Notes under the pieces: generated by a model
Database searches by the model: none
Seen by the model: only the letters and a program-made list of their open reading frames with translations
Told to the model about the DNA's origin: nothing
Program-made: the position numbers and the translations under genes
Shown here: in pieces, positions 1,540-14,985 of the stretch
Layout: every line of letters begins with the position of its first letter
Position numbering within the stretch: the first letter of the stretch is position 1
Origin: an uncultured Desulfobacterales bacterium
GTDB taxonomy: Bacteria > Desulfobacterota > Desulfobacteria > Desulfobacterales > G020354645
NCBI GenBank assembly: GCA_947259865.1
Contig: CAMYNZ010000039.1
Span: 1 to 15,217, forward strand
Length of the DNA stretch: 15,217 nucleotides
Direction of reading: 5' to 3'

Positions 1540-4281
1540 TCATTTGTCCTTTGTAATCTCACCGCGGAGAGCTGCCTGGGCCGCAGCCAGGCGAGCAATG
1601 GGAACCCGATAGGGTGAACACGAAACATAGGTCAACCCGAGCTTATGACACAGGGCCACAGATTGCGGATCGCCACCGTGCTCCCCGCAAATACCGCATT
1701 CAAGATCGGGATTTACCTTGCGCCCCTTTTTCACCGCTATGGCCATTAGCTCACCCACCCCGTCCGGGTCGATGGTAGCAAATGGATTGTTCTGCAATAT
1801 TTTCTTTTCCAAATATGCGATCAGAAATCCGGCCTCAGCATCATCCCGTGAGATTCCAAAAGTGGTTTGGGTCAAATCGTTGGTTCCAAAAGATATAAAT
1901 TCTGCATACTCGGCGATCTGATCGGCTGTCAGCGCTGCGCGCGGAATTTCGATCATGGTGCCGAATTTATACTCGATATCAACACCCTGCTCCTCCATGA
2001 CTTTCTTGGCCTGGGTCTCGAGAATTTCCCGTTGTATTTTGAGTTCGTTCACGTGGCATGTCAATGGGATCATTACTTCCGGGTGCACCGAGATGCCTTC
2101 CTTGGCCACTTCACAGGCTGCTTCAAATATCGCCCGGACCTGCATGGTCGTCAGTTCCGGCATTTGAATACCCAGACGCACCCCGCGCAAACCAAGCATG
2201 GGATTTTCTTCCCGCAAGCTTTCCACCCGCTTGAGTATCGGCTCTTTTTCTTTGATCTGCGCCTGTAATTCATCGGTCTCTGAAGGTGTTGCGGCATACT
2301 GCAGTCGGATCTTTAATTCGGCCAGCTCGCGCGTCAGATCAATAATGTTGGGTAAGAATTCGTGCAGCGGCGGGTCAATCAAGCGAATGATAACCGGTAA
2401 ACCATCCATGGCCCTGAAAAGCCCGGCGAAGTCTTCGCGTTGAAAGGGTAAGAGGGTGTCAAGTGCTTCACGCCGCTCATCGGGCACATCGGACATTATC
2501 ATCTTCTGTACATGCGGCAGCCGACTGGCCTCGAAAAACATGTGTTCGGTGCGGCAAAGACCGATACCTTCAGCGCCGTATTCGCGTGCCCGTTGCGCAT
2601 CCCGGGGGTAATCGGCGTTGGTCCAAACACCGAGACGACGGAATTCGTCTGCCCAGGAGAGGAATTTTATCAACCACGGATCCTTGATATCAGGTACGAC
2701 GGTAGCAAGCTGCCCCTTATACAGCTCACCGGCAGTGCCATCGATCGAGATCCAGTCTCCTTCCTTGATGGTGAGATCGTTGACTCGCATCTCTCGTTTG
2801 TCCAGGTCGATGTTAAGCTCCGATACACCCACGACGGCCGGTTTTCCAAACTGGCGGGCCACCAGGGCCGCATGGCTGGTGCGACCGCCGCGACTGGTTA
2901 AGATCCCATTGGCGGCCAACATGCCGTGAACATCATCCGGTTTGGTCTCGGGCCGCACCATAATCACCTGTTTGCCGTCCTGCTTGGCCCACGATTCGGC
3001 TAAATCGGCATCCAGAGCCACCACACCGCAGGCAGCCCCCGGTGACACATTGAGACCCTTGGCCAGCATAGTTCCACTGGCTCTGGCTTCTTTGGTCGCT
3101 TCCGGATCAAACTGGGGATGCAGGAAAAAATCGATTTGTTCGGGTGTTACCCGCAAAACCGCTTCCTCTTTGGTTATGAGACCCTCTTCAACCATATCGA
3201 CGGCAATCCGCACAGCCGACTGCGCTGTGCGTTTACCATCACGCGTTTGCAGCATCCACAGCTTACTCTTTTCAACCGTGAACTCAACGTCCTGCATATC
3301 GCGATAATGGGTTTCGAGATCTCGACAAATTTGCTCGAATTCGGCATACGCATCCGGCAGTTCATTTTTCAGATTTTGAATATTTTCGGTCAGACGGATC
3401 CCGGCAACAACATCCTCACCCTGGGCATTCATCAGATAATCGCCTTCGATATTATTTTCTCCGGTTGACGCATTGCGCGTCATGGCAACACCGGTCGCAC
3501 TATCACTGCCCATATTACCAAAAACCATGGTCTGGATATTAACGGCGGTACCCAGGTCATGGGAGATACCGGCCGCATTGCGATAATCGATCGCACGTTT
3601 ACCGTTCCAGCTTTTAAAAACCGCCTCGGTAGCCAGCTTCAACTGTTCAATCGGGTCGGATGGAAATGCCTTTTGCGTGTGATCCTCATATATCTTTTTG
3701 AATTCGGTTGTTACGGTTTTCCAATCCGTTGCCGACAATTCGGAATCAGATTTAACGCCGGCTTTTTCACGGGCTGCGGTAATTAATTCCTCAAACGGCT
3801 CATCGGGCATCCCCATCACAACACTGCCGAACATTTGAACCAGTCGTCGGTAAGCGTCCCAGACGAATCTTTCATCCGCGGTAAGCGCAATCATGCCCTT
3901 GGCTGTCTGATCGTTCAAACCGATGTTGAGTACCGTATCCATCATGCCCGGCATTGAAAATTTTCCGCCCGACCGGCATGAAACCAGCAACGGATTTTTA
4001 GCATCCCCCAATTTTTTGCCGGTAGCCGCCTCGACCTCTTTTAGGGCATCCAGTTCCTGCTCCCACATATCCGTCGGAAATTTCTCACCTTCTTCAAGAT
4101 AAGCAAGGCAGGCTTCGGTTGTTAAGGTAAATCCCGGTGGAACCGGCACCTTCAATCGCACCATCTCCGCCAGGTTGGCTCCTTTACCGCCCAGAAGTCC
4201 GCGGACGGCGTCCCATTCTCCATCAACGTATTCCTCGGCCAATTTTACTTCGTTGAAAAGATATACCCACTTTTTAGTCAT
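1540..4281 (-). CDS. ppdK: Pyruvate, phosphate dikinase
   Basis: A 913-residue cytosolic enzyme that interconverts pyruvate + ATP + Pi with PEP + AMP + PPi. In anaerobes it links pyruvate to gluconeogenesis or works in PPi-dependent glycolysis. The N-terminal ATP-binding domain starts with GGKGANL at residues 31-37 and carries SGGKFSMPGMMDT at 104-116. The swivelling phosphohistidine domain has GGRTSHAALVAR with the phospho-acceptor His at 470; many family members have Met where this one has Arg. The C-terminal PEP/pyruvate barrel includes GIGLCRTEHMF, SFGTNDLTQ and CGICGEHGGDP, with the catalytic Cys at 865. The length is normal for the family and no damage is seen. The ATG at 4281 follows GGGGGTG on the minus strand. 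The gene stands alone, with a promoter candidate about 60 bp upstream. No regulatory kinase/phosphatase gene (PDRP) is visible nearby. Confidence 0.97.
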   Translation of the reverse strand: MTKKWVYLFNEVKLAEEYVDGEWDAVRGLLGGKGANLAEMVRLKVPVPPGFTLTTEACLAYLEEGEKFPTDMWEQELDALKEVEAATGKKLGDAKNPLLVSCRSGGKFSMPGMMDTVLNIGLNDQTAKGMIALTADERFVWDAYRRLVQMFGSVVMGMPDEPFEELITAAREKAGVKSDSELSATDWKTVTTEFKKIYEDHTQKAFPSDPIEQLKLATEAVFKSWNGKRAIDYRNAAGISHDLGTAVNIQTMVFGNMGSDSATGVAMTRNASTGENNIEGDYLMNAQGEDVVAGIRLTENIQNLKNELPDAYAEFEQICRDLETHYRDMQDVEFTVEKSKLWMLQTRDGKRTAQSAVRIAVDMVEEGLITKEEAVLRVTPEQIDFFLHPQFDPEATKEARASGTMLAKGLNVSPGAACGVVALDADLAESWAKQDGKQVIMVRPETKPDDVHGMLAANGILTSRGGRTSHAALVARQFGKPAVVGVSELNIDLDKREMRVNDLTIKEGDWISIDGTAGELYKGQLATVVPDIKDPWLIKFLSWADEFRRLGVWTNADYPRDAQRAREYGAEGIGLCRTEHMFFEASRLPHVQKMIMSDVPDERREALDTLLPFQREDFAGLFRAMDGLPVIIRLIDPPLHEFLPNIIDLTRELAELKIRLQYAATPSETDELQAQIKEKEPILKRVESLREENPMLGLRGVRLGIQMPELTTMQVRAIFEAACEVAKEGISVHPEVMIPLTCHVNELKIQREILETQAKKVMEEQGVDIEYKFGTMIEIPRAALTADQIAEYAEFISFGTNDLTQTTFGISRDDAEAGFLIAYLEKKILQNNPFATIDPDGVGELMAIAVKKGRKVNPDLECGICGEHGGDPQSVALCHKLGLTYVSCSPYRVPIARLAAAQAALRGEITKDK

Positions 4282-4337
4282 GTTGGCACCCCCATAATTA
4301 GTTTTCGTGTAATCTAAAAATCTTATAAACGCTTTGA

Positions 4338-4364
4338 ATTATAAAAAAAGTGACTGACTGTCAA
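4338..4364 (-). promoter_or_regulatory. Promoter candidate for ppdK
   Basis: On the minus strand a consensus -35 box TTGACA (4364-4359) is followed after 15 bp by a consensus -10 box TATAAT (4343-4338). The leader to the ppdK ATG would be about 50 bases. Both hexamers are perfect, but the spacer is two bases shorter than ideal. A small palindrome, GATCA-TCGG-TGATC (4375-4388), lies just upstream of the -35 and could be a protein-binding site. Confidence 0.5.
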
Positions 4365-4657
4365 GTCTAAAACAGATCATCGGTGATCAATGACCAATCG
4401 CAGAGCGGCAGGTTTGAAATTTCAATTCCAAACGGACCCAGGCAAAAGTACGTCAGTGCTTCAAGCCATGCTCTGGCAACCGCTGTCTATCAAACGGTTT
4501 GCAGGGAAAGAAAGCCTGAATTGGCTGTATCCATTTTTAACCGCCCCCAACTTTTTATAAGTGTGCTTAAATCTTTGTATCGCGGCCCGCGGTTACGACC
4601 GGTGTCACTTTCTGTTGTTGAAACTATGTTTCACGTATTTTCATGCTATTTTTTTGT

Positions 4658-4685
4658 TTGACATGCAAACTGCAGTGACTTAAAT
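4658..4685 (+). promoter_or_regulatory. Promoter candidate for the SpoIIAA-like gene
   Basis: A perfect -35 box TTGACA at 4658-4663 is followed after 16 bp by TTAAAT at 4680-4685, a weak -10 match. It lies about 100 bp before the ATG at 4785. The -10 box is poor, so the call is tentative. Confidence 0.35.
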
Positions 4686-4784
4686 AAATCGGAACATAAT
4701 TTTTTAAAATCCTCTACGATGGGGTTTTGAAGCTGCTTCTAAATGATATTGCTGTAAACAACCCACCTGTTCAAATAAGCCGCC

Positions 4785-5360
4785 ATGTACCAGGTACGCA
4801 AGGATTCCAAAAAAAATCGTCTTTATCTCACCTTTGCTGAACCCAGCAGGCAAGAGTTAAGAAAAGCATTGAAAGAGGTTGAAAAATTGTGCTTAACCTT
4901 ACAACCCAATTTTACGTGCGTGACTGATCTTAGAGATTGTGTGCCGATTATCGAAGAAAACAAGGATCTATTCGAAAAAAAGCAAAACAGAATCTGGGGA
5001 TTGGGCGTTGGCAAGACAGTCCGGGTCATACCTGAATCAGATTCAAGCCTGAATTTGGTGCAATCCCTGCGCTCGATTGCAGTTCAATATCAAACAGATT
5101 ATGTCACCAGCATCCAGGAGGCTGAAACCATCCTGGACACCTACAAAGAAGAAATAGATCGCCACAAAAGCCCGGTTGAAAATGAAATGTTCAAGATAAT
5201 TGACATGAATGGCTGGGAGTTCGAGAAGTGTTACTTAACCTATGATGAAGCGTTTAAGAATTTAAAGAAAATCCGTAAAACAGGTCGTCAAACGGCAATC
5301 GTAGTCGGTGCCAATGTTTCTGTCTGCAACAATTTGAAGAAGGCACGACCGGAAAAATAA
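4785..5360 (+). CDS. SpoIIAA/STAS-like protein of unknown function
   Basis: A 191-residue soluble protein with no signal peptide or membrane segment. Residues 1-85 (MYQVRKDSKKNRLYLTF, then two helical segments, PNFTCVTDLRDC, and GVGKTVRVIPES) have the beta-alpha pattern and spacing of SpoIIAA-like/STAS-type small domains. In those families the domain acts as a sensor or anti-anti-sigma-like module, often found alone in delta-proteobacteria. The remainder is mostly helical and charged. From about 140 to 191 comes a second short unit (MNGWEFEKCYLTYDEAFKNL, then RKTGRQTAIVVGANV) that I do not recognise. The start has only a weak ribosome site. The gene converges with the pseudokinase gene, leaving a 117-bp gap without an obvious terminator. 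A signalling role is an inference from the fold guess alone. Confidence 0.7.
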   Translation: MYQVRKDSKKNRLYLTFAEPSRQELRKALKEVEKLCLTLQPNFTCVTDLRDCVPIIEENKDLFEKKQNRIWGLGVGKTVRVIPESDSSLNLVQSLRSIAVQYQTDYVTSIQEAETILDTYKEEIDRHKSPVENEMFKIIDMNGWEFEKCYLTYDEAFKNLKKIRKTGRQTAIVVGANVSVCNNLKKARPEK

Positions 5361-5477
5361 CACGGGTTTTTAACCTACCAGGATCTTTACACGTATACAC
5401 CTTTTTAATCCTCGCCAGTACCGGATGCTGCAAGGACCGTTCTAAAATTTCAAGGGACTGCTCACCCAATAACCATT

Positions 5478-7247
5478 TCAGATATCTTTGAAATCAGTCG
5501 CTTTAAGATCCGCGCCCAACTTCCGTGTTTTAGTACTGAATTCTTCCAGAAGCCGTTTGAGGGCAAGCTGTTGTTTTTCATTGTAAAGTAAGAATAGATT
5601 CATCATTTTTCGTTTTTCCGAAGACTGGATCTCTGACTCCAGCCCGTATGATTTGGCGAGAACCAGCAGGTCTTTTAAGGCCGCGGTCGCATTTTGATAT
5701 CGGTCATCCGGATTTTCGGCGCAGGCTTTAAGCACAAATCGCCTTAAGATTTCCGGCAAACCCGGTACTTGACCGGCCGGATCCGGTACGATGTGTTTTG
5801 GGGGCAAATCTGAAGCGGTTCGAGTGGGATCTTCTTTGGAGGCCTTTTTGCCGGTGAGCATTTCATATGCGATAACACCTAACGCATAGATGTCACTGCG
5901 CCCATCAACTGCGGCACTCCGGATTTGCTCGGGGGACATGTAGGCCGCTGCACCCGGAAAATTCACTGCACTGTTTTTTGTCGGGCTATACAGCCCGAAA
6001 TCAAGAATTTTTAAACCGCCGCCCTGACATACGAAAAGGTTTGATGGCTTAATAGTTTCATGGAAAATATCCCGCTCGTGAGCATAGACGAGACCGGAAC
6101 AGATATGGATTAAAAAAGAGGTCGTTTGAGGGATCGGAATGGATTTCCATCTCTCAATTAGTGACGCCAATGTTTCACCTTCCAGCAGTTCCGTAATAAT
6201 AAAATAGGTGCGATATTGCTTTTCTATGTCATACACTTTGACGATGTTTTTATGATTCAGGGTGACTATACTTTTAGCCTTTTTGGGGTAACTGCCACCA
6301 AACTCTGAACCCATTGCCAAATCATGTCTTATCATCTTCACGGCTACCGGGATGTTCAGGTCGGCGTGTACACCCTTGTAGACGATACTGTTGGCGCCCT
6401 GTCCGATGATATCAGTGATATAATATTTTCCGATTCTCTTTTCTTTGGCAGGTCGCCATGACGAAAACCGTTTAACCAGCAGCTCAGTTAGAAAATTTCT
6501 CAATTCGGGATGTTCCGCAGCAATTTTATCAAACCGCGGTCTGGCGAGTCCCCAGAGTTCCATATCCGTTTCAGCTTTAATATACACGCGTTGCGTCTGG
6601 TCCGTCAGCATTGCCATCTCACCGATATGATCGCCTGCTTGCAGCCTTCCCGCTGGCTGGGTCTTATCGTTTTGGGCCACACTGGTGATGCACGAGCCAC
6701 TTTGAATAATATAAAAGGCGTCACTCCGGGTTCCTTGAGTGATGAATTTTTCACCCGCACTTATTTGCCTGTAGGTTAAGCTGTTTAAAAGGGGGCATAC
6801 GAGAACTCTATGGACGGATTCAAATAATTGTGTGTGTCGTAGAAACTCATAATCCGATGGGAGGGGCATCTTTTTTATCCCATCCGGGTTTGGTAGCGGA
6901 TGCTCCGGTGCTAGGTCCGGGATTTGAAACTCCAACCCGATAAGGTTGAATGCGGGATTGGTCGTATCGCTATTTATCCACTTGGCCCTGACCCGGACAA
7001 ACTCCCAGGATTCCTCAATCGAATTATAAATCTTCAAATGGAACGATATTTCAGGTTCGATTTCCCATTTGGTCTTCAAAATTACGCCGCCCATGCTCCG
7101 ATTGAGCAAATCCACATACAATGCAGCTGGCTGTTTTGTTACATGAATTCCAGGGACAAATCCCTGATTACCGGTATACAAAATCCCTATCTCCGGAGGG
7201 TTTAAAACTTCTCTCAGCCAACGCCTGCGATCATGTTGGATTTCCAT
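5478..7247 (-). CDS. PilZ - cyclic-nucleotide-binding - protein kinase-fold protein (predicted pseudokinase)
   Basis: A 589-residue soluble signalling protein. Start: the frame reaches 7289 only through a TTG codon; the ATG at 7247 has AAGGA eight bases upstream and is preferred. Residues 6-110 are a PilZ domain with both c-di-GMP motifs, RxxxR (R8-R12) and NxSxxG (N49, S51, G54). Residues 140-262 are a cyclic-nucleotide-binding domain with the phosphate-binding cassette G209-E210 to R220. Residues 273 to about 535 have a serine/threonine kinase fold: the glycine loop GQGANSIVYKG, VAVK with Lys304, DFG with Asp416, and MSPEQ for APE. The catalytic loop reads HETIKPSN (396-403), so Thr398 replaces the catalytic Asp. 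The alpha-C Glu position is Lys323 (PKKAKSIVTLNH). ATP binding may survive, but phosphotransfer should be impaired. The last 50 residues are helical and charged. No transmembrane segment is present. It converges with the SpoIIAA-like gene and diverges from ald. Confidence 0.88.
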   Translation of the reverse strand: MEIQHDRRRWLREVLNPPEIGILYTGNQGFVPGIHVTKQPAALYVDLLNRSMGGVILKTKWEIEPEISFHLKIYNSIEESWEFVRVRAKWINSDTTNPAFNLIGLEFQIPDLAPEHPLPNPDGIKKMPLPSDYEFLRHTQLFESVHRVLVCPLLNSLTYRQISAGEKFITQGTRSDAFYIIQSGSCITSVAQNDKTQPAGRLQAGDHIGEMAMLTDQTQRVYIKAETDMELWGLARPRFDKIAAEHPELRNFLTELLVKRFSSWRPAKEKRIGKYYITDIIGQGANSIVYKGVHADLNIPVAVKMIRHDLAMGSEFGGSYPKKAKSIVTLNHKNIVKVYDIEKQYRTYFIITELLEGETLASLIERWKSIPIPQTTSFLIHICSGLVYAHERDIFHETIKPSNLFVCQGGGLKILDFGLYSPTKNSAVNFPGAAAYMSPEQIRSAAVDGRSDIYALGVIAYEMLTGKKASKEDPTRTASDLPPKHIVPDPAGQVPGLPEILRRFVLKACAENPDDRYQNATAALKDLLVLAKSYGLESEIQSSEKRKMMNLFLLYNEKQQLALKRLLEEFSTKTRKLGADLKATDFKDI

Positions 7248-7296
7248 GAAGGTGTTCCTTTTTAAATCAAAAATGATGATATTAAACAATTTCTTT

Positions 7297-7328
7297 ACAT
7301 ATTAATATGTTATGATACTAATTGTCAA
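7297..7328 (-). promoter_or_regulatory. Promoter candidate with a perfect palindrome upstream of the pseudokinase gene
   Basis: On the minus strand a perfect -35 box TTGACA (7328-7323) is followed after 15 bp by TATTAA (7307-7302), a fair -10 match. The -10 lies inside a perfect 14-bp palindrome ACATATTAATATGT (7297-7310). A second inverted repeat, CAACAA-G-TTGTTG (7326-7338), overlaps the -35 box. The placement suggests control by a dimeric DNA-binding protein. The leader to the ATG at 7247 would be about 50 bases. Confidence 0.4.
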
Positions 7329-7368
7329 CAAGTTGTTGGCCATCTTCCCCTAACACTGACCCTCTTTC

Positions 7369-7399
7369 AGCAATCATCGTTTTTAATCGTATGATTGCT
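7369..7399. repeat. 9-bp inverted repeat (possible operator)
   Basis: AGCAATCAT at 7369-7377 is perfectly repeated in inverse as ATGATTGCT at 7391-7399, with 13 bases between. The stem is AT-rich and no T-run follows on the plus strand, so an operator-like site is more likely than a terminator. Confidence 0.5.
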
Positions 7400-7503
7400 T
7401 TACTCGATCAAAATAATTTGGTAACAAGAAATGAGGCAATACCTGTGTGACATTTCTAGTATTATATCCCAGGAATAAGTTTAAAAAGTCATGCAGCGGT
7501 TTG

Positions 7504-7527
7504 ATCCGCCAGAGACCGTTGGCGGAT
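7504..7527. repeat. 8-bp hairpin upstream of ald
   Basis: ATCCGCCA (7504-7511) pairs perfectly with TGGCGGAT (7520-7527) around an 8-base loop. It lies about 130 bp before the ald start and is not followed by a T-run. It could be part of the ald leader or of an old repeat element. Confidence 0.45.
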
Positions 7528-7654
7528 GAGCCGAGCATTTTAAACTGGATCGCAACGCAGCCTTCGGCCACAAGATGGGATTTTGAAACCACTTCTAAGG
7601 GTTTTCGTTTATTCTATGCCATGGATACATTAACACTTTCTAGGAGAGGTCGTT

Positions 7655-8767
7655 ATGATTGTAGGGATACTCAAAGAAATCAAGGCTGAGGAAAATCGCG
7701 TTTCTATGACCCCGGCCGGCGTGGAAATTATGCTGCAAAATGGGCACCAGGTATTGGTTGAAAAAAGCGCCGGGATCGGCAGCGGATTTGGCGATGACAT
7801 CTATTTGAAAGCCGGCGCTGAGATGGTCGCTAAACCGAAAACCATTTTCGAACGTGCAAATATGGTCATGCATGTCAAAGAGCCTTTGCCACCCGAGTAT
7901 GATCTAATCCGCAAAGATCAGATTGTTTTCACTTATCTGCACCTGGCAGCGGCAGAGGAACTGACTCACATCCTGATGAAAGCCGGAAGTGTAAACATCG
8001 CCTATGAAACGATTCAAAAAGAAGACGGCTCTCTACCCTTGCTTACCCCCATGAGTGAGGTGGCCGGACGAATGGCAATCCAGCAAGCAGCCAAATATCT
8101 TGAAATGTCGCAAGGCGGAGAAGGCGTCTTACTGGGTGGGGTTCCAGGGGTAGACCCGGGTTCCGTTCTCATTATCGGCGGCGGTGTTGTCGGCACAAAT
8201 GCGGCCAAGATGGCCTGCGGACTGGGGGCCAAAGTTTACGTTCTGGACTTCAATTTAGATCGTCTCCGCTATCTCAGCGATGTTATGCCCGCCAACTGTT
8301 TTCCGTTGATGTCAAACCCGGCGACCCGACGTAAACTCATCAAAGAAGCAGATGTCGTTGTGGGAGCCGTTCTGATTCCGGGTGCTAAGGCGCCCAGGCT
8401 GGTCACCCGGGATATGATAAAAACCATGAAAAAAGGTTCGGTGTTGGTTGACGTCGCCATCGATCAGGGGGGGTGCTTTGAAACTTCCAAAGCCACCACT
8501 CACGCCGATCCCATTTACATGATTGACGGCGTCGTTCATTACTGCGTGGCAAATATGCCGGGAGCTGTTCCAAAGACCTCAACCCTGGCGTTGACCAATG
8601 CTACTTTGCCCTATGCAGTGGAAATAGCCAACAAGGGATGGCAAGCTGCCTTTAAGGACAATCCTGAAATTAAGCTGGGGGCCAATGTCGTTCACGGCAA
8701 GGTAACCTATAAGGGCGTAGCGGAGGCTTTTGACTTAAAGTATGAAACAGTGGACAGTCTATTATAA
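7655..8767 (+). CDS. ald: Alanine dehydrogenase
   Basis: A 370-residue cytosolic enzyme catalysing L-alanine + NAD+ + H2O to pyruvate + NH4+ + NADH, reversibly. It can serve alanine use as carbon or nitrogen source, or ammonium assimilation. The N-terminus MIVGILKEIKAEENRVSMTP is typical of the family. Pyruvate-site residues Lys75 (VKEP) and His96 (YLHLAA) are present. The NAD-binding Rossmann motif GGGVVG is at 175-180, followed by the adenosine-ribose Asp198 (VLDFN). Asp270 (VAIDQGG) and Asn300 (VANMPGAVP) fall at the positions known from the Mycobacterium tuberculosis enzyme. Length is standard and no damage is seen. The ATG has a strong AGGAGAGG ribosome site. The gene stands alone, converging on miaA with a 35-bp gap. 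Pyruvate links it in metabolism to ppdK, but the two are not in one operon. Confidence 0.97.
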   Translation: MIVGILKEIKAEENRVSMTPAGVEIMLQNGHQVLVEKSAGIGSGFGDDIYLKAGAEMVAKPKTIFERANMVMHVKEPLPPEYDLIRKDQIVFTYLHLAAAEELTHILMKAGSVNIAYETIQKEDGSLPLLTPMSEVAGRMAIQQAAKYLEMSQGGEGVLLGGVPGVDPGSVLIIGGGVVGTNAAKMACGLGAKVYVLDFNLDRLRYLSDVMPANCFPLMSNPATRRKLIKEADVVVGAVLIPGAKAPRLVTRDMIKTMKKGSVLVDVAIDQGGCFETSKATTHADPIYMIDGVVHYCVANMPGAVPKTSTLALTNATLPYAVEIANKGWQAAFKDNPEIKLGANVVHGKVTYKGVAEAFDLKYETVDSLL

Positions 8768-11280: not shown

Positions 11281-11318
11281 AATTTTCATTGCACATGTTG
11301 AATATGAGGATATCGATA

Positions 11319-12170
11319 GTGAATAAAAAAACAGACAGCCAATTTTCTGGAGCAACCCGTTATGTTTTGGATGATGAACTGGCCGGCATTGTCAACATTT
11401 CCATGGCACTTGAAATGCCGCTTTTGTTAAAGGGGGAACCGGGCACCGGTAAGACCATGCTGGCCCATGCCATAGCAGAGAGTTTGGAGATGCCCCTTAT
11501 TGTACTTAACGTTAAATCAAGCATGAAGCTCGTGGAAGCCCTGTATCAATATGACACGTTGACGCGGCTGAACGACAGCCGTTTTGGCGATTCCAGCCGG
11601 AATGTCAGCAATATCCAGGACTACATAAGAATGGGCAAGATCGGCCAGGCCTTTACCGCCGAAGCAAGAACGGTGCTGTTGATTGACGAAATCGATAAGG
11701 CTGACAGCGATTTCCAGGATGACATGCTGGATGTGCTGGATCAGATGGAATTCGACATAATCGAAATCGATAAGACCGTCAAAGCGAATCACCGCCCGGT
11801 GATCATCATTACTTCGAATGCTAAAAAAGACCTTTCGGATCCGTTTTTGGGCCGTTGCAATTTTCACCACATCGCTTTTCCGGAAACAGGCATGATGCGT
11901 GAGATTGTAAAGGTGCACTTTCCGGATATAGACACACAGCTGATTGAGAATGCCATAAATACTTTTTACCGACTACGGGAGATTGATACCGTAGAGAAGC
12001 GGCCCGCCACCCGGGAGTTATTAAACTGGATAAGAGCACTCAGTGCCGATCCTGATTTTAAACCTGACAACCTTGCCAATGGCGAAGTGCCCTTTATGGG
12101 AGTGCTGTTCAAAAAAAGTCAGGATTATCGGAGCGCTGCGCACAAGATAGAACGCCGAAGATTGCTTTAG
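11319..12170 (+). CDS. MoxR-family AAA+ ATPase
   Basis: A 283-residue soluble AAA+ ATPase of the MoxR/CbbQ type. Such ATPases work as chaperone-like remodelling factors together with a von Willebrand A-type partner, for example in maturation of metal-containing or multi-subunit enzymes. Walker A is GEPGTGKT at residues 39-46, and Walker B is VLLIDEIDKAD with D123 and E124. The sensor-1 segment IIITSNAKKDL is present, and FLGRCNFHHIAFP is the usual post-sensor block with the arginine-finger region. The GTG at 11319 was chosen because GAGGA lies eight bases upstream; ATG codons at 11295 and 11304 in the same frame lack a ribosome site. The CoxE-like gene 298 bp downstream on the same strand is the expected partner. 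The substrate is unknown. Confidence 0.9.
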   Translation: MNKKTDSQFSGATRYVLDDELAGIVNISMALEMPLLLKGEPGTGKTMLAHAIAESLEMPLIVLNVKSSMKLVEALYQYDTLTRLNDSRFGDSSRNVSNIQDYIRMGKIGQAFTAEARTVLLIDEIDKADSDFQDDMLDVLDQMEFDIIEIDKTVKANHRPVIIITSNAKKDLSDPFLGRCNFHHIAFPETGMMREIVKVHFPDIDTQLIENAINTFYRLREIDTVEKRPATRELLNWIRALSADPDFKPDNLANGEVPFMGVLFKKSQDYRSAAHKIERRRLL

Positions 12171-12237
12171 GGTGGCCATCGTATGGAAAAGTAATAATTT
12201 TTGTATCAGTTCATAATTAATATTTTGGTCTGCGAAT

Positions 12238-12382
12238 AAATCCGAAATTCGAATATCGAATGATCAAAATATGGCGTTCCTGAATCTCATCTCATTTTAA
12301 CGTACGGCTTATTTCTAAAGTTTAGAATTTTGAATTTTGGACATTTGAATTTGTTTCGGATTTCGGATTTCGTGCTTCGGAT
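12238..12382. repeat. Inverted and tandem short repeats in the MoxR-CoxE gap
   Basis: The 298-bp gap 12171-12468 is AT-rich and holds no credible gene. AAATCCGAAA at 12238-12247 is perfectly inverted as TTTCGGATTT at 12354-12363 and again at 12361-12370. The right side is a 7-bp tandem array: TTCGGAT at 12355 and 12362, a degenerate TTCGTGC at 12369, and TTCGGAT at 12376. Between them lie TTTAGAATTTTGAATTTTGG and similar near-repeats. It looks like a dispersed intergenic repeat inserted between two functionally linked genes. The other copies are outside this window. Confidence 0.5.
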
Positions 12383-12468
12383 TTGAATCATGCGATAAAA
12401 GCACGCAGTTAAAATTATTCGATGGCGTTTGTATAATTCCCATTTGTCAGTAAAGGAATGATCTGGGT

Positions 12469-13659
12469 ATGTTTATTGATTTTTTCTATACGCTGAAGGA
12501 TGTGGGGGTGCCGGTCAGTCCGACATCTTTTTTGACCCTGCACAAAGCTTTGGGTACCGGATTGATCAATTCCCTGAATGATTTTTATACCTCCTCCCGG
12601 GCCATCCTGGTCAAAAGCGAACGATATTTTGATCTTTTTGACCAGGTTTTCGCGCATCACTTCCAGGGCGCGGATTTGCCGGACTATACAGGCGTTGAGC
12701 TTGATGAAATTGCCCGGGCGCTGCTCCAGCAGTGGCTCAAAGAACCTGAGGCACTGGCTGACGCACTTGGAATTGACCCGTCGGAGTTAAAGAAATTGAG
12801 TCCAGAGGAGCTCATCGAATATTTTAAGGAACGGTTGAAAGAACAAACCGAAGCCCACCACGGTGGTAACCATTGGATTGGAACCGGCGGAACCTCACCG
12901 GTGGGCCATTCAGGGTATCACCCGGGTGGCATGCGTGTCGGTGGTATGTCTGGTAACAAATCGGCCGTAAAGGTCGCTATGGATCGAAGATACAAAGATT
13001 ATTCGCTGAATGGTCCCCTTACGCAATCCATGATGGGTGAAGCTCTAAAACGGCTGCGCAACATGATCCCGACCGGCCCCAAAGACCAGGTTAATATAGA
13101 TGCTACTATTTACCAGACTATGAAAAATGGGGGCGAAATTGAGATTATTTTTGACCGGAGTCTAAAAGATCGGCTCAAAGTGATCCTTGCTATAGATAAC
13201 GGCGGTTATTCCATGGATCCTTATGTGCCGATGGTCCAGACGCTTTTTGACTACACCCGGGCCCAATTCAAGGATATTAAAACTTATTTTTTTCATAACA
13301 CGATTTACGGTTCGTTGTGGTCAGATCCGGCACGCTATAAAAGGCCTGAGGCGATTGATGTATTTGCCCGCTTTGATCCGGAGACCCGTTTTATTGTAGT
13401 GGGTGATGCCAGTATGGCCCCCTATGAGCTAATGGCTGCGGACGGTTCCATACATCTGGAAGAACGCAGTGGCCGACCCAGCATCGAATGCCTGCAATTT
13501 CTTGCCAAAACCTTTACCCATTCCGTATGGCTGAATCCGATATCCGAGGGGATGTGGGGCTATACCCAAAGCATTAATGTTATCCGTGATATTTTTCCCA
13601 TGTTCGAGCTTTCTATTGATGGGTTGGAGAAGACCATCGCCCACCTCATGACCAAATAA
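12469..13659 (+). CDS. CoxE-like / von Willebrand A-type protein, partner of MoxR
   Basis: A 396-residue soluble protein. The N-terminal helical part (MFIDFFYTLKDVGVPVSPTS, then a long helical stretch with a Glu/Lys-rich run to about residue 128) matches CoxE-type VWA proteins that pair with MoxR ATPases. A Gly/His-rich linker follows at about 129-165 (HHGGNHW..GTGG..GHSGYHPGG). The C-terminal half is VWA-like: LKVILAIDNGGYSMDPY at about 235-252, then a helix, FFHNTIYGSLW, and FIVVGDASMAPYEL. The metal-site motif DxSxS is replaced by D243-N-G-G-Y247-S-M, so the MIDAS is degenerate and metal binding is doubtful. No membrane segment is seen. The start ATG is preceded by AAAGGA at a rather long 11-base spacing. 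The pairing with MoxR is inferred from gene order and family knowledge. The enzyme that the pair matures is not identified here. Confidence 0.85.
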   Translation: MFIDFFYTLKDVGVPVSPTSFLTLHKALGTGLINSLNDFYTSSRAILVKSERYFDLFDQVFAHHFQGADLPDYTGVELDEIARALLQQWLKEPEALADALGIDPSELKKLSPEELIEYFKERLKEQTEAHHGGNHWIGTGGTSPVGHSGYHPGGMRVGGMSGNKSAVKVAMDRRYKDYSLNGPLTQSMMGEALKRLRNMIPTGPKDQVNIDATIYQTMKNGGEIEIIFDRSLKDRLKVILAIDNGGYSMDPYVPMVQTLFDYTRAQFKDIKTYFFHNTIYGSLWSDPARYKRPEAIDVFARFDPETRFIVVGDASMAPYELMAADGSIHLEERSGRPSIECLQFLAKTFTHSVWLNPISEGMWGYTQSINVIRDIFPMFELSIDGLEKTIAHLMTK

Positions 13660-13893: not shown

Positions 13894-14985
13894 AAAAGAT
13901 AGGGGACGTTGTTGTCTAAGTTGATTTGTTTGTGTTATGTAACTGACAAAAATTTTTAATTAGGAGGGATACGATGCCGCGTCGAGCTCGCTTGGATGCC
14001 CCTGGGACTTTGCATCATGTGATGGTGCGAGGAATTGAAAAGCGCAGGATTGTCAATGATGTTGCCGACCGTAACAATTTTGTAAAGCGTTTGGCAGAGC
14101 TGTCTGCCGCTACAAAGACCACCATCTATGCCTGGGCACTGCTGACCAATCATGCCCATATACTTTTGCGCAGCTCGGACATAGGTCTTTCCGGATTTAT
14201 GCGTCGGTTGCTGACCGGTTATGCAATTTGGTATAATCGACGTCATCGCCGCTGGGGTCATTTATTTCAAAACCGTTATAAGTCCATTATCTGTGATGAA
14301 GATGCCTATTTTACAGAACTGGTGCGTTACATCCATTTAAATCCGTTGCGGGCTAAATTAGTTAAAGGTTTAGCACAACTGGATCGTTACCGCTGGAGCG
14401 GTCATGGCGTATTGATGGGTAAAATTAAAAATGAATGGCAGGATCGAGACTACGTATTGAAATGGTTTGGCAAAAAGGAAGGTGCGGCAAAGAATGCATA
14501 CCGCAACTATGTGAAAAAGGGAATCGATCAGGGACGTCGGCCTGAGCTTGTTGGTGGAGGTTTAATCCGTTCCTTAGGCGGTTGGTCGGCTGTGCTGGCT
14601 ATGCGTCGTTCCGGGGATCGTGAATTGAGTGATGATCGGATATTGGGAAGTGGTGAATTTGTCGAGCGGATCATCAAAGAAGCTGAAGCCAAAATTAAAT
14701 ATCAACTACCCGTCAAGAAGCATCATCAAAAAATTGATGAATTTATAACCCAAATATGTAAAAGTGAAAAAGTATCCATTGAAGAATTAAAAGCCGGTAG
14801 CCGGCGCAAGGAGGCAAGTGGGGTTCGAGCTCGGATTGCGATGGGATTGGTAAAGACTCATGGGGTTGCTTTAGCTGAAGTTGCCAGACAACTGGGTGTT
14901 TCGACCTCGGCCATATCAAAAATCATAAAACGAGCGAGTTAAAGTTAATAAGTCAACTCAGACAACAACGTCCCCTATATCTTTT
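13894..14985 (+). mobile_element. RAYT-type transposase element with inverted ends
   Basis: The transposase gene is enclosed by inverted repeats. The left arm at 13901-13924 begins AGGGGACGTTGTTGTCT. It is the inverse of the right arm at 14953-14976 with one mismatch in 24 bases. Outside these, AAAAGAT (13894-13900) is inverted at 14979-14985 with a 2-base bulge. The arms end 50 bp before the transposase ATG and 11 bp after its stop. No clear target-site duplication was seen, which fits HUH/Y1 transposition. Whether the element is still mobile is unknown. Confidence 0.75.
13974..14942 (+). CDS. REP-associated tyrosine transposase (Y1/HUH, IS200-like)
   Basis: A 322-residue single-strand DNA transposase of the RAYT group. 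The start MPRRARLDAPGTLHHVMVRG is typical. The HUH metal motif is HAH (H60, H62, in TNHAHILLR). The HRRWGHLFQNRYKS block is at 91-104, and the catalytic Tyr is Y119 in ELVRYIHLNPLRA. The C-terminal 70 residues (IDEFITQICKSEKVSIEEL.., RARIAMGLVKTHGVALAEVA, LGVSTSAISKIIKR) form a DnaA-domain-IV-like helix-turn-helix, found on many RAYTs and likely used for binding the repeat ends. All catalytic residues are present and the frame is intact. The ATG has a strong AGGAGGG ribosome site. RAYTs process REP/BIME palindromes in other genomes; here the likely substrates are the flanking inverted arms. Confidence 0.93.
   Translation: MPRRARLDAPGTLHHVMVRGIEKRRIVNDVADRNNFVKRLAELSAATKTTIYAWALLTNHAHILLRSSDIGLSGFMRRLLTGYAIWYNRRHRRWGHLFQNRYKSIICDEDAYFTELVRYIHLNPLRAKLVKGLAQLDRYRWSGHGVLMGKIKNEWQDRDYVLKWFGKKEGAAKNAYRNYVKKGIDQGRRPELVGGGLIRSLGGWSAVLAMRRSGDRELSDDRILGSGEFVERIIKEAEAKIKYQLPVKKHHQKIDEFITQICKSEKVSIEELKAGSRRKEASGVRARIAMGLVKTHGVALAEVARQLGVSTSAISKIIKRAS

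Follow-up and report, generated by a model that had tools for sequence, protein, structure and literature searches.

A 15,217-nucleotide stretch from an uncultured Desulfobacterales bacterium (contig CAMYNZ010000039.1 of assembly GCA_947259865.1; hereafter the window) encodes a protein, P0001, in which a PilZ domain precedes a cyclic-nucleotide (cNMP)-binding domain (cNBD) fold and a Ser/Thr kinase fold. We found that P0001 belongs to a branch, clade A, in which the cNMP pocket has lost its phosphate-binding arginine, most members have lost the catalytic aspartate of the kinase, evolutionary constraint has shifted to the PilZ domain, and the gene lies upstream of that for pyruvate, phosphate dikinase (PPDK). 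The domains, the residue losses with their phylogeny, the shift in constraint and the linkage were all computed from the sequences, and we are confident in this anatomical and evolutionary part of the account. More tentatively, and at slightly less than even confidence, we propose that this PPDK-linked branch turned a cNMP-controlled Ser/Thr kinase into a non-catalytic switch that would sense cyclic di-GMP (c-di-GMP) and hold ATP. Within this proposal, we infer the binding of ligands, the lack of activity and the role of PPDK as target.

Domains and active-site residues of the window protein

The preliminary description had placed the gene at 5478..7247. These coordinates hold, and the gene was assigned to the minus strand, given that the plus-strand reading of the same frame is riddled with stops. 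The start is an ATG at 7247, with an alternative TTG start possible upstream at 7289. Pfam detected a protein kinase domain (PF00069) at residues 277-518 (E 1.7e-40) and a cNMP_binding domain (PF00027) at residues 160-246 (E 1.7e-15). The best PDB sequence match was to a PknB-type kinase (1o6y, 1.3e-35), and the best Foldseek matches of the full structural model were to cGMP-dependent protein kinase (PKG; 7t4u, 8.5e-24), with PknB-type kinases also among the Foldseek matches. This AlphaFold2 model of the whole protein, computed from 97 alignment rows, reached a predicted local distance difference test score (pLDDT) of 85.4 and a predicted template modelling score (pTM) of 0.82.

The residues named previously were all read as described: the c-di-GMP motifs R8xxxR12 and N49RS51MGG54, the beta3 lysine K304, K323 at the position of the alpha-C glutamate, H396-E397-T398 in place of HRD, and D416 of the DFG motif. 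A 2025 review defines pseudokinases by the absence of the beta3 Lys, the HRD Asp and/or the DFG Asp (PMC12599244). By this definition P0001 is a bacterial Ser/Thr pseudokinase, with Thr398 replacing the HRD Asp and K304 and D416 kept. Of the residues expected in an active PknB-type kinase, it lacks both the HRD Asp (Thr398) and the alpha-C Glu (Lys323).

Repeated loss of kinase catalysis in clade A

From 6918 homologues at E up to 1e-3, 120 were listed and aligned (P numbers; L numbers denote the genomic loci or stretches compared), and all 120 carry cNMP and kinase domains according to the precomputed column. Eight incomplete rows (P0007, P0026, P0085, P0093, P0094, P0100, P0108 and P0116) were dropped before tree building and counting, leaving a tree of 112. 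The window protein and its relatives form clade A, with 24 full-length rows and a Shimodaira-Hasegawa-like approximate likelihood ratio test (SH-aLRT) support of 100; the remaining 88 rows constitute the sister group. A search with a clade-A profile likewise showed a drop in score from 921 to 755 bits after clade A, the truncated P0007 excepted. By sequence, P0007 (without the catalytic Asp) and P0026 (with it) group with clade A.

The catalytic Asp is present in only 7 of the 24 clade-A rows, and thus lost in 17, compared to 88/88 in the sister group; for the alpha-C Glu the corresponding counts are 8/24 and 88/88. Both residues are kept in all 23 relatives read at loci outside clade A, of which 22 come from 20 stretches and one from L011. 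When the tree was built with the two columns excluded, at least three changes were required at Asp398 and three at Glu323, and the replacements of Asp398 differ by lineage: Thr or Ile in the window's group, Ala in P0006 and P0014, and Arg in the P0013 group. P0030 and P0051 have kept the catalytic Asp and lost the alpha-C Glu. The HET sequence of the window protein is not an isolated change, as Thr or Ile occupies position 398 in P0001 and in five of its closest homologues (P0002-P0005 and P0007), and a one-off mutation was rejected since this change and the catalytic losses are common to close relatives. The alpha-C lysine, which the preliminary description had counted as a second, independent loss, is less general: K or R occurs in P0001-P0004 and P0007, but P0005 and the L001 protein have Glu.

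K304, the catalytic-loop asparagine N403 and D416 are jointly kept in 23/24 clade-A rows. Retention of nucleotide binding, but not of catalysis, would be expected to leave such a pattern. The full catalytic set is kept in 0/24, a weak count since one of the changes it includes, K400 to Asn, also occurs in Asp-keeping relatives. Comparison of the kinase regions of the window and L001 gave a non-synonymous divergence (dN) of 0.21 and a ratio to synonymous divergence (dN/dS) of about 0.1 by the Nei-Gojobori method (NG86), with dS saturated at 2.0. Pseudogene status is unlikely, given uninterrupted full-length frames in the window and L001-L004 and a dN/dS well below 1 (dS being saturated). Together, phylogeny and residue counts support the earlier suggestion that the window protein is a pseudokinase with kept ATP-site residues, which would bind ATP and would probably be non-catalytic.

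Constraint has shifted to the PilZ domain

RxxxR and [D/N]xSxxG are the c-di-GMP motifs and have a known placement within PilZ folds. In the full model of P0001, six strands are predicted at residues 13-107, with RxxxR preceding strand 1 and NxSxxG lying between strands 2 and 3, as would suit the PilZ assignment made previously. In the precomputed annotation, 17 of the 120 homologues carry the PilZ family (PF07238). In searches at E up to 10 it matched 2/19 clade-A rows (best 2.4e-4) and 11/13 aligned N-terminal fragments (best 5.4e-10), the P0001 fragment being one of the two misses. A profile of the 13 PilZ fragments matched no PDB chain at E up to 5. Foldseek with the full model speaks neither for nor against a PilZ fold, since the best 50 of 2000 matches were all kinases. 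A model of the PilZ region alone was set aside as too poor (pLDDT 57.7), and no fold search was based on it.

The complete c-di-GMP motif is present in 21/24 clade-A proteins compared to 71/88 in the sister group. Tree lengths per domain on a fixed topology were 3.24 (PilZ), 4.18 (cNBD) and 7.43 (kinase) in clade A, and 41.3, 16.9 and 15.3, respectively, in the sister group, which corresponds to a PilZ/kinase ratio of 0.44 versus 2.7. Mean pairwise identity follows the same pattern, at 0.71 in clade A versus 0.32 in the sister group for PilZ and 0.54 versus 0.60 for the kinase. Of the three domains, PilZ ranks first in conservation in clade A and last in the sister group: within clade A, constraint has shifted to PilZ. 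The PilZ domain of the window protein quite probably binds c-di-GMP.

The cyclic-nucleotide pocket has lost its arginine

The phosphate-binding cassette of the sister group is classical, with GEPRSA the commonest sequence at residues 216-221 (38/88) and Arg219 in 87/88 rows (Ser in the other). In clade A, a gap-free stretch of the alignment has Leu (17), Gln (5) or Val (2) at position 219 and Arg in 0/24. P0001 itself retains the cNMP_binding fold with Gln219 at the arginine position. At genome loci outside clade A, 21 of the 23 relatives read keep the arginine, and the other two, both without PilZ, have Gln. Parsimony places the loss on the clade-A stem, preceding the losses of catalysis (two changes in the whole tree).

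In Bd1971 of Bdellovibrio, the available text of PMC6717892 describes Arg67, at the same position, as part of the phosphate cradle; its change to Asp raised cellular c-di-GMP, as did loss of the catalytic residues. The preliminary description had proposed that the protein reads two nucleotide second messengers. The cNMP half of that proposal finds no support, since the phosphate-binding arginine is lost throughout clade A, and the window protein probably reads one second messenger rather than two. Both messengers may exist in the cell, given that GGDEF domains and class III cyclases were each found in 4/4 clade-A genomes.

Linkage to pyruvate, phosphate dikinase

A contig scan of the genomes yielded five loci: the clade-A loci L001-L004, in four metagenome-assembled genomes labelled Deltaproteobacteria, and L005, which holds an intact relative and comes from the L004 assembly. 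In 5/5 clade-A loci (the window and L001-L004), PPDK is the next same-strand frame of at least 100 amino acids downstream. The gap between the pseudokinase and PPDK genes measures 1196 bp in the window and 1608, 335, 161 and 116 bp in L001-L004, respectively, and the PPDKs of L001-L004 are 73-87% identical to that of the window. PPDK was found in 0/20 stretches with active-type relatives (L030 and L046-L064; 13 of the PilZ type and 7 without it), or on a fair count in 0/17, as L030, L046 and L063 hold less than 1.6 kb downstream (L063 practically none). Conversely, 0/20 PPDK neighbourhoods from genomes outside the clade contain a clade-A-type gene, as judged by eye from the listed frames and with less than 1.5 kb of upstream flank in L116, L119 and L120. 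The upstream genes in these neighbourhoods, also judged by eye, vary by genome.

A gene for a 140-amino-acid protein lies downstream of PPDK in L001 (19712-20098), L002 (4955-5332) and L003 (6141-6563). Its product could be assigned to no known family, and it was not found in the 20 other PPDK neighbourhoods.

The known bacterial and plant regulator of PPDK is the DUF299 protein PDRP, which the available text of PMC8100219 states to be present in all bacteria with PPDK. The corresponding profile (PF03618) gave no match on P0001 and was found in 0/4 clade-A genomes; such assembled genomes may be incomplete, although for L001 the record is a chromosome of 5.57 Mb. Of 14 control genomes, three (E. 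coli, B. subtilis and C. vibrioides) gave a match to the profile. DUF299 was found in 13/116 genomes of the order and is thus scarce there although PPDK is common, contrary to that statement. A further 29 genomes of the order, the hosts of L080 and L082-L109, have a PPDK close to that of the window (67-79% identity), and DUF299 was found in only one of them. As the regulator is this rare also without a clade-A protein, its absence calls for no replacement. The PDRP-target Thr next to the catalytic His (TSH) is kept in 33/33 PPDKs covering the site, a 34th, that of L004, being cut before it. Considering the linkage, PPDK is a possible target of the window protein, with the balance leaning against it.

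A possible mechanism and its alternatives

The most specific form of our proposal, which we consider doubtful as a whole, is that a c-di-GMP-gated, ATP-binding pseudokinase controls PPDK by direct contact in bacteria without the usual regulator, having arisen from a cNMP-regulated kinase that lost first its pocket and then, several times, catalysis. For the main proposal, the order of events is read from the tree: the phosphate-binding arginine of the cNMP pocket went first, on the stem of the branch, and the catalytic Asp disappeared afterwards about three times, with PilZ almost fixed throughout. In the present protein, c-di-GMP would most likely bind PilZ through R8, R12, N49, S51 and G54, and the change would be relayed by way of the cNMP-type fold, itself free of ligand, to the kinase fold. 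The latter would hold ATP (K304, N403, D416) and serve as a docking surface rather than an enzyme. The target would be PPDK or another step at the pyruvate/phosphoenolpyruvate (PEP) node; both the window and L004 also have an alanine dehydrogenase gene nearby.

Several observations weigh against this proposal. Of the domains expected from the preliminary description, the kinase and cNMP_binding profiles were found on P0001, but PF07238 gave no direct Pfam match on it and was recovered only on relatives. Arg220, one place past the lost arginine, is present in the window protein and P0002 (2/24) and might partly substitute for it. P0008-P0012, all within clade A, retain Asp, Glu and DFG; the change in their catalytic loop, K400 to Asn or Ser, is of limited weight, as Asn also replaces K400 in 8 of 23 Asp-keeping relatives. 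At two loci, the window and L001, an opposite-strand gene lies within the gap of 1.2-1.6 kb, which excludes a simple operon there, and these two loci share further neighbours, namely miaA, the 191-amino-acid gene and M48. Finally, the PPDK tree is compatible with a single origin of the linkage (approximately unbiased test, p-AU 0.912). A free quick PPDK tree placed the five linked PPDKs in two groups, but was 36.7 log units worse. Given that a single PPDK origin is not rejected, the loci represent one linkage kept over deep divergence and not five gains.

A first alternative is that the linkage is merely inherited and the protein a general c-di-GMP receptor, for instance for motility or adhesion, whose C-terminal part has been drifting after loss of its kinase role. 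The small number of loci (five), the compatibility of the linkage with a single origin, the long gaps in two of them, the neighbours that some loci share besides PPDK, and a kinase tree length in clade A exceeding those of PilZ and cNBD are all in line with such a history. However, the linkage persists in L002-L004, whose proteins are only 47-49% identical to that of the window, whereas the other neighbours are patchy (some contigs being short): miaA, the 191-amino-acid gene and M48 recur in L001, alanine dehydrogenase in L004 and the 140-amino-acid gene in L001-L003. Moreover, the ATP-site residues are almost universally kept, and the dN/dS between the window and L001 indicates that the C-terminal part is not in free drift. 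We regard this explanation as somewhat unlikely. It is quite improbable, in our judgement, that the kinase fold still has activity, through non-canonical catalysis or in some clade members, and that it phosphorylates PPDK in place of DUF299. Some proteins without the expected catalytic residues are active, and part of clade A may be so, since P0008-P0012 keep Asp and Glu (with K304, E323, D398, N403 and D416 all in place) and K400N occurs in Asp-keeping relatives. In addition, the DUF299-target Thr is invariant in the PPDKs, yet the clade-A genomes gave no DUF299. Against this, the tree shows three changes of the catalytic Asp, which became Thr, Ile, Ala or Arg, the window protein also lacks the alpha-C Glu, and DUF299 is also scarce in close-PPDK genomes devoid of a clade-A protein.

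A third possibility concerns the cNMP domain, which may have changed its ligand rather than lost it. In trypanosomatid PKA, as described in the available text of PMC10959531, the same arginine is replaced and purine nucleosides have taken the place of cAMP, with a Glu at the Ala position contacting the ribose 3' and 5' hydroxyl groups. Clade A shares the arginine loss and keeps the ribose-binding Glu210 in 22/24 rows. The trypanosomatid Glu is missing, however: Ala212 is conserved in 24/24, so that a ligand change of this type is not indicated. A nucleoside swap was accordingly thought unlikely, and we give it very little credence.

Distribution of relatives outside clade A

Relatives at E up to 1e-90 occur in 64/389 genomes of the class to which the L004 genome belongs, and named homologues are annotated as protein kinase, CRP-like or Bud32-like. 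Clade A is far rarer: of the 291 genomes of the order, none besides the four clade-A genomes reaches the scores typical of that clade (at least 972 bits versus at most 702 elsewhere). An intact relative is also present in two of the four clade-A genomes (L010, L011).

Using one query each, we found a class III cyclase match in 5/20 active-type stretches and a PP2C phosphatase in 3/20 (7/20 in all), and neither in any of the 5 clade-A loci. The stretches with a cyclase and/or PP2C near the kinase include L054 (7201-10453), L052, L055, L060 and L062, as expected of a cNMP-controlled kinase. L047 (754-3949) and L050 (1168-4270) hold tandem pairs in which a Cys-rich cNBD-kinase is followed by a PilZ-cNBD-kinase; in both pairs, the first kinase carries Gln where the cNMP arginine would be. 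Of the seven PilZ-less relatives whose N-termini were inspected, six are cysteine-rich and one is masked. A conserved Cys/Trp-rich N-terminal domain (NCWE..KCGR...) replaces PilZ, on an unchanged cNBD-kinase core, in L047, L050, L057, L060, L061 and L062.

Other features of the window

The coordinates of the features discussed are collected in Table 1. Domain searches assigned no known family to the 191-amino-acid protein. Further along the window (11289-13659, plus strand), a gene for an AAA ATPase, MadB-like but under the curated cut-off, is followed by one for a 396-amino-acid protein that had no Pfam, NCBIfam or PADLOC match, and then by a Y1 (REP-type) transposase gene at 13974-14942. An Rfam scan of the window found no family at or above its gathering score, and promoter and terminator patterns at 4200-7700 showed no excess over shuffled sequence.

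Table 1 Positions of the pseudokinase gene, its predicted domains and residues, and neighbouring genes in the window
Feature	Position	Strand	Basis or remark
PPDK, 913 amino acids	1540..4281	minus	TIGR01828, 1279.9 bits (cut-off 843.45)
191-amino-acid gene between pseudokinase and PPDK	4785..5360	plus	Counterpart with 70% identity at the equivalent position in L001
Gene for PilZ, cNMP-type domain and predicted pseudokinase (P0001)	5478..7247	minus	589 amino acids; translation, domain search, homologues
C-terminal helix, residues 557-576, beyond the kinase fold	5520..5579	minus	Structure model
Kinase fold, residues 270-530	5658..6440	minus	PF00069, 1.7e-40; PknB-like in PDB searches
Thr398 at catalytic Asp position (HET for HRD)	6054..6056	minus	Homologue alignment, tree
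Lys323 at alpha-C Glu position	6279..6281	minus	Homologue alignment
Cyclic-nucleotide-binding fold with degenerate pocket, residues 141-262	6462..6827	minus	PF00027, 1.7e-15
Gln219 at phosphate-binding Arg position	6591..6593	minus	Arg in 0/24 clade A, 87/88 sister group
PilZ domain, residues 1-110	6918..7247	minus	Slowest-evolving domain in clade A
c-di-GMP motif 2, N49xS51xxG54	7086..7103	minus	N 24/24, S 22/24, G 23/24 in clade A
c-di-GMP motif 1, R8xxxR12	7212..7226	minus	Kept in 24/24 clade A
Alanine dehydrogenase, divergent upstream neighbour	7655..8767	plus	TIGR00518, 512.7 bits; also near the L004 locus

Comparison with known systems

The preliminary description knew of no described system with this architecture. 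Among the open-licence papers listed, judged by titles and the beginnings of abstracts, we likewise recognised none on such a protein, but the architecture itself is common in sequence databases, as the distribution above demonstrates. What is unusual is the catalysis-losing clade and its PPDK linkage; the domains and the fold are known. According to the abstract of PMC12599244, bacterial pseudokinases are experimentally little explored and their functions unknown, and a term search of that review's main text returned no PilZ, c-di-GMP or cyclic nucleotide. Against this background, clade A offers a natural series, from an intact kinase through loss of the cNMP arginine to loss of catalysis some three times over, in which the c-di-GMP domain persists, and PPDK is a concrete candidate partner for a bacterial pseudokinase. 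The scarcity of DUF299 in PPDK-bearing genomes of the order makes PPDK control in these bacteria a testable question. If our proposal is true, a link from c-di-GMP to the pyruvate/PEP node would couple lifestyle signalling to carbon flow.

The closest counterparts are the sister-group proteins from Desulfobacterales and others (e.g., P0059 and P0090), which match the window protein along its entire length at 39-48% identity, with the three domains arranged alike. The sister-group proteins differ in having the catalytic Asp and alpha-C Glu in 88/88 and the cassette arginine in 87/88, and in lacking PPDK in 20/20 stretches. PknB-type Ser/Thr kinases share the kinase fold, whereas the window protein is without the HRD Asp and has no PASTA among its Pfam matches. 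In PKG a cNBD directly precedes the kinase, as in the window protein, whose single cNBD, in contrast, has a broken pocket and is preceded by PilZ, and whose kinase fold lacks the catalytic Asp. With PDRP/DUF299 (PF03618), an unrelated family, the possible target PPDK is the sole likeness. In the available text of PMC6717892, Bd1971 is a cAMP-sensing c-di-GMP phosphodiesterase and thus likewise combines a cNMP domain with c-di-GMP biochemistry in one protein; it has an EAL output and an intact Arg67 cradle, whereas the window protein has a PilZ receptor, no EAL and no such arginine. Finally, the ActPs1-3, GLW, CP1, DYD and DLHK pseudokinases of the review PMC12599244 likewise combine a Ser/Thr kinase fold with the loss of one of the three key residues.

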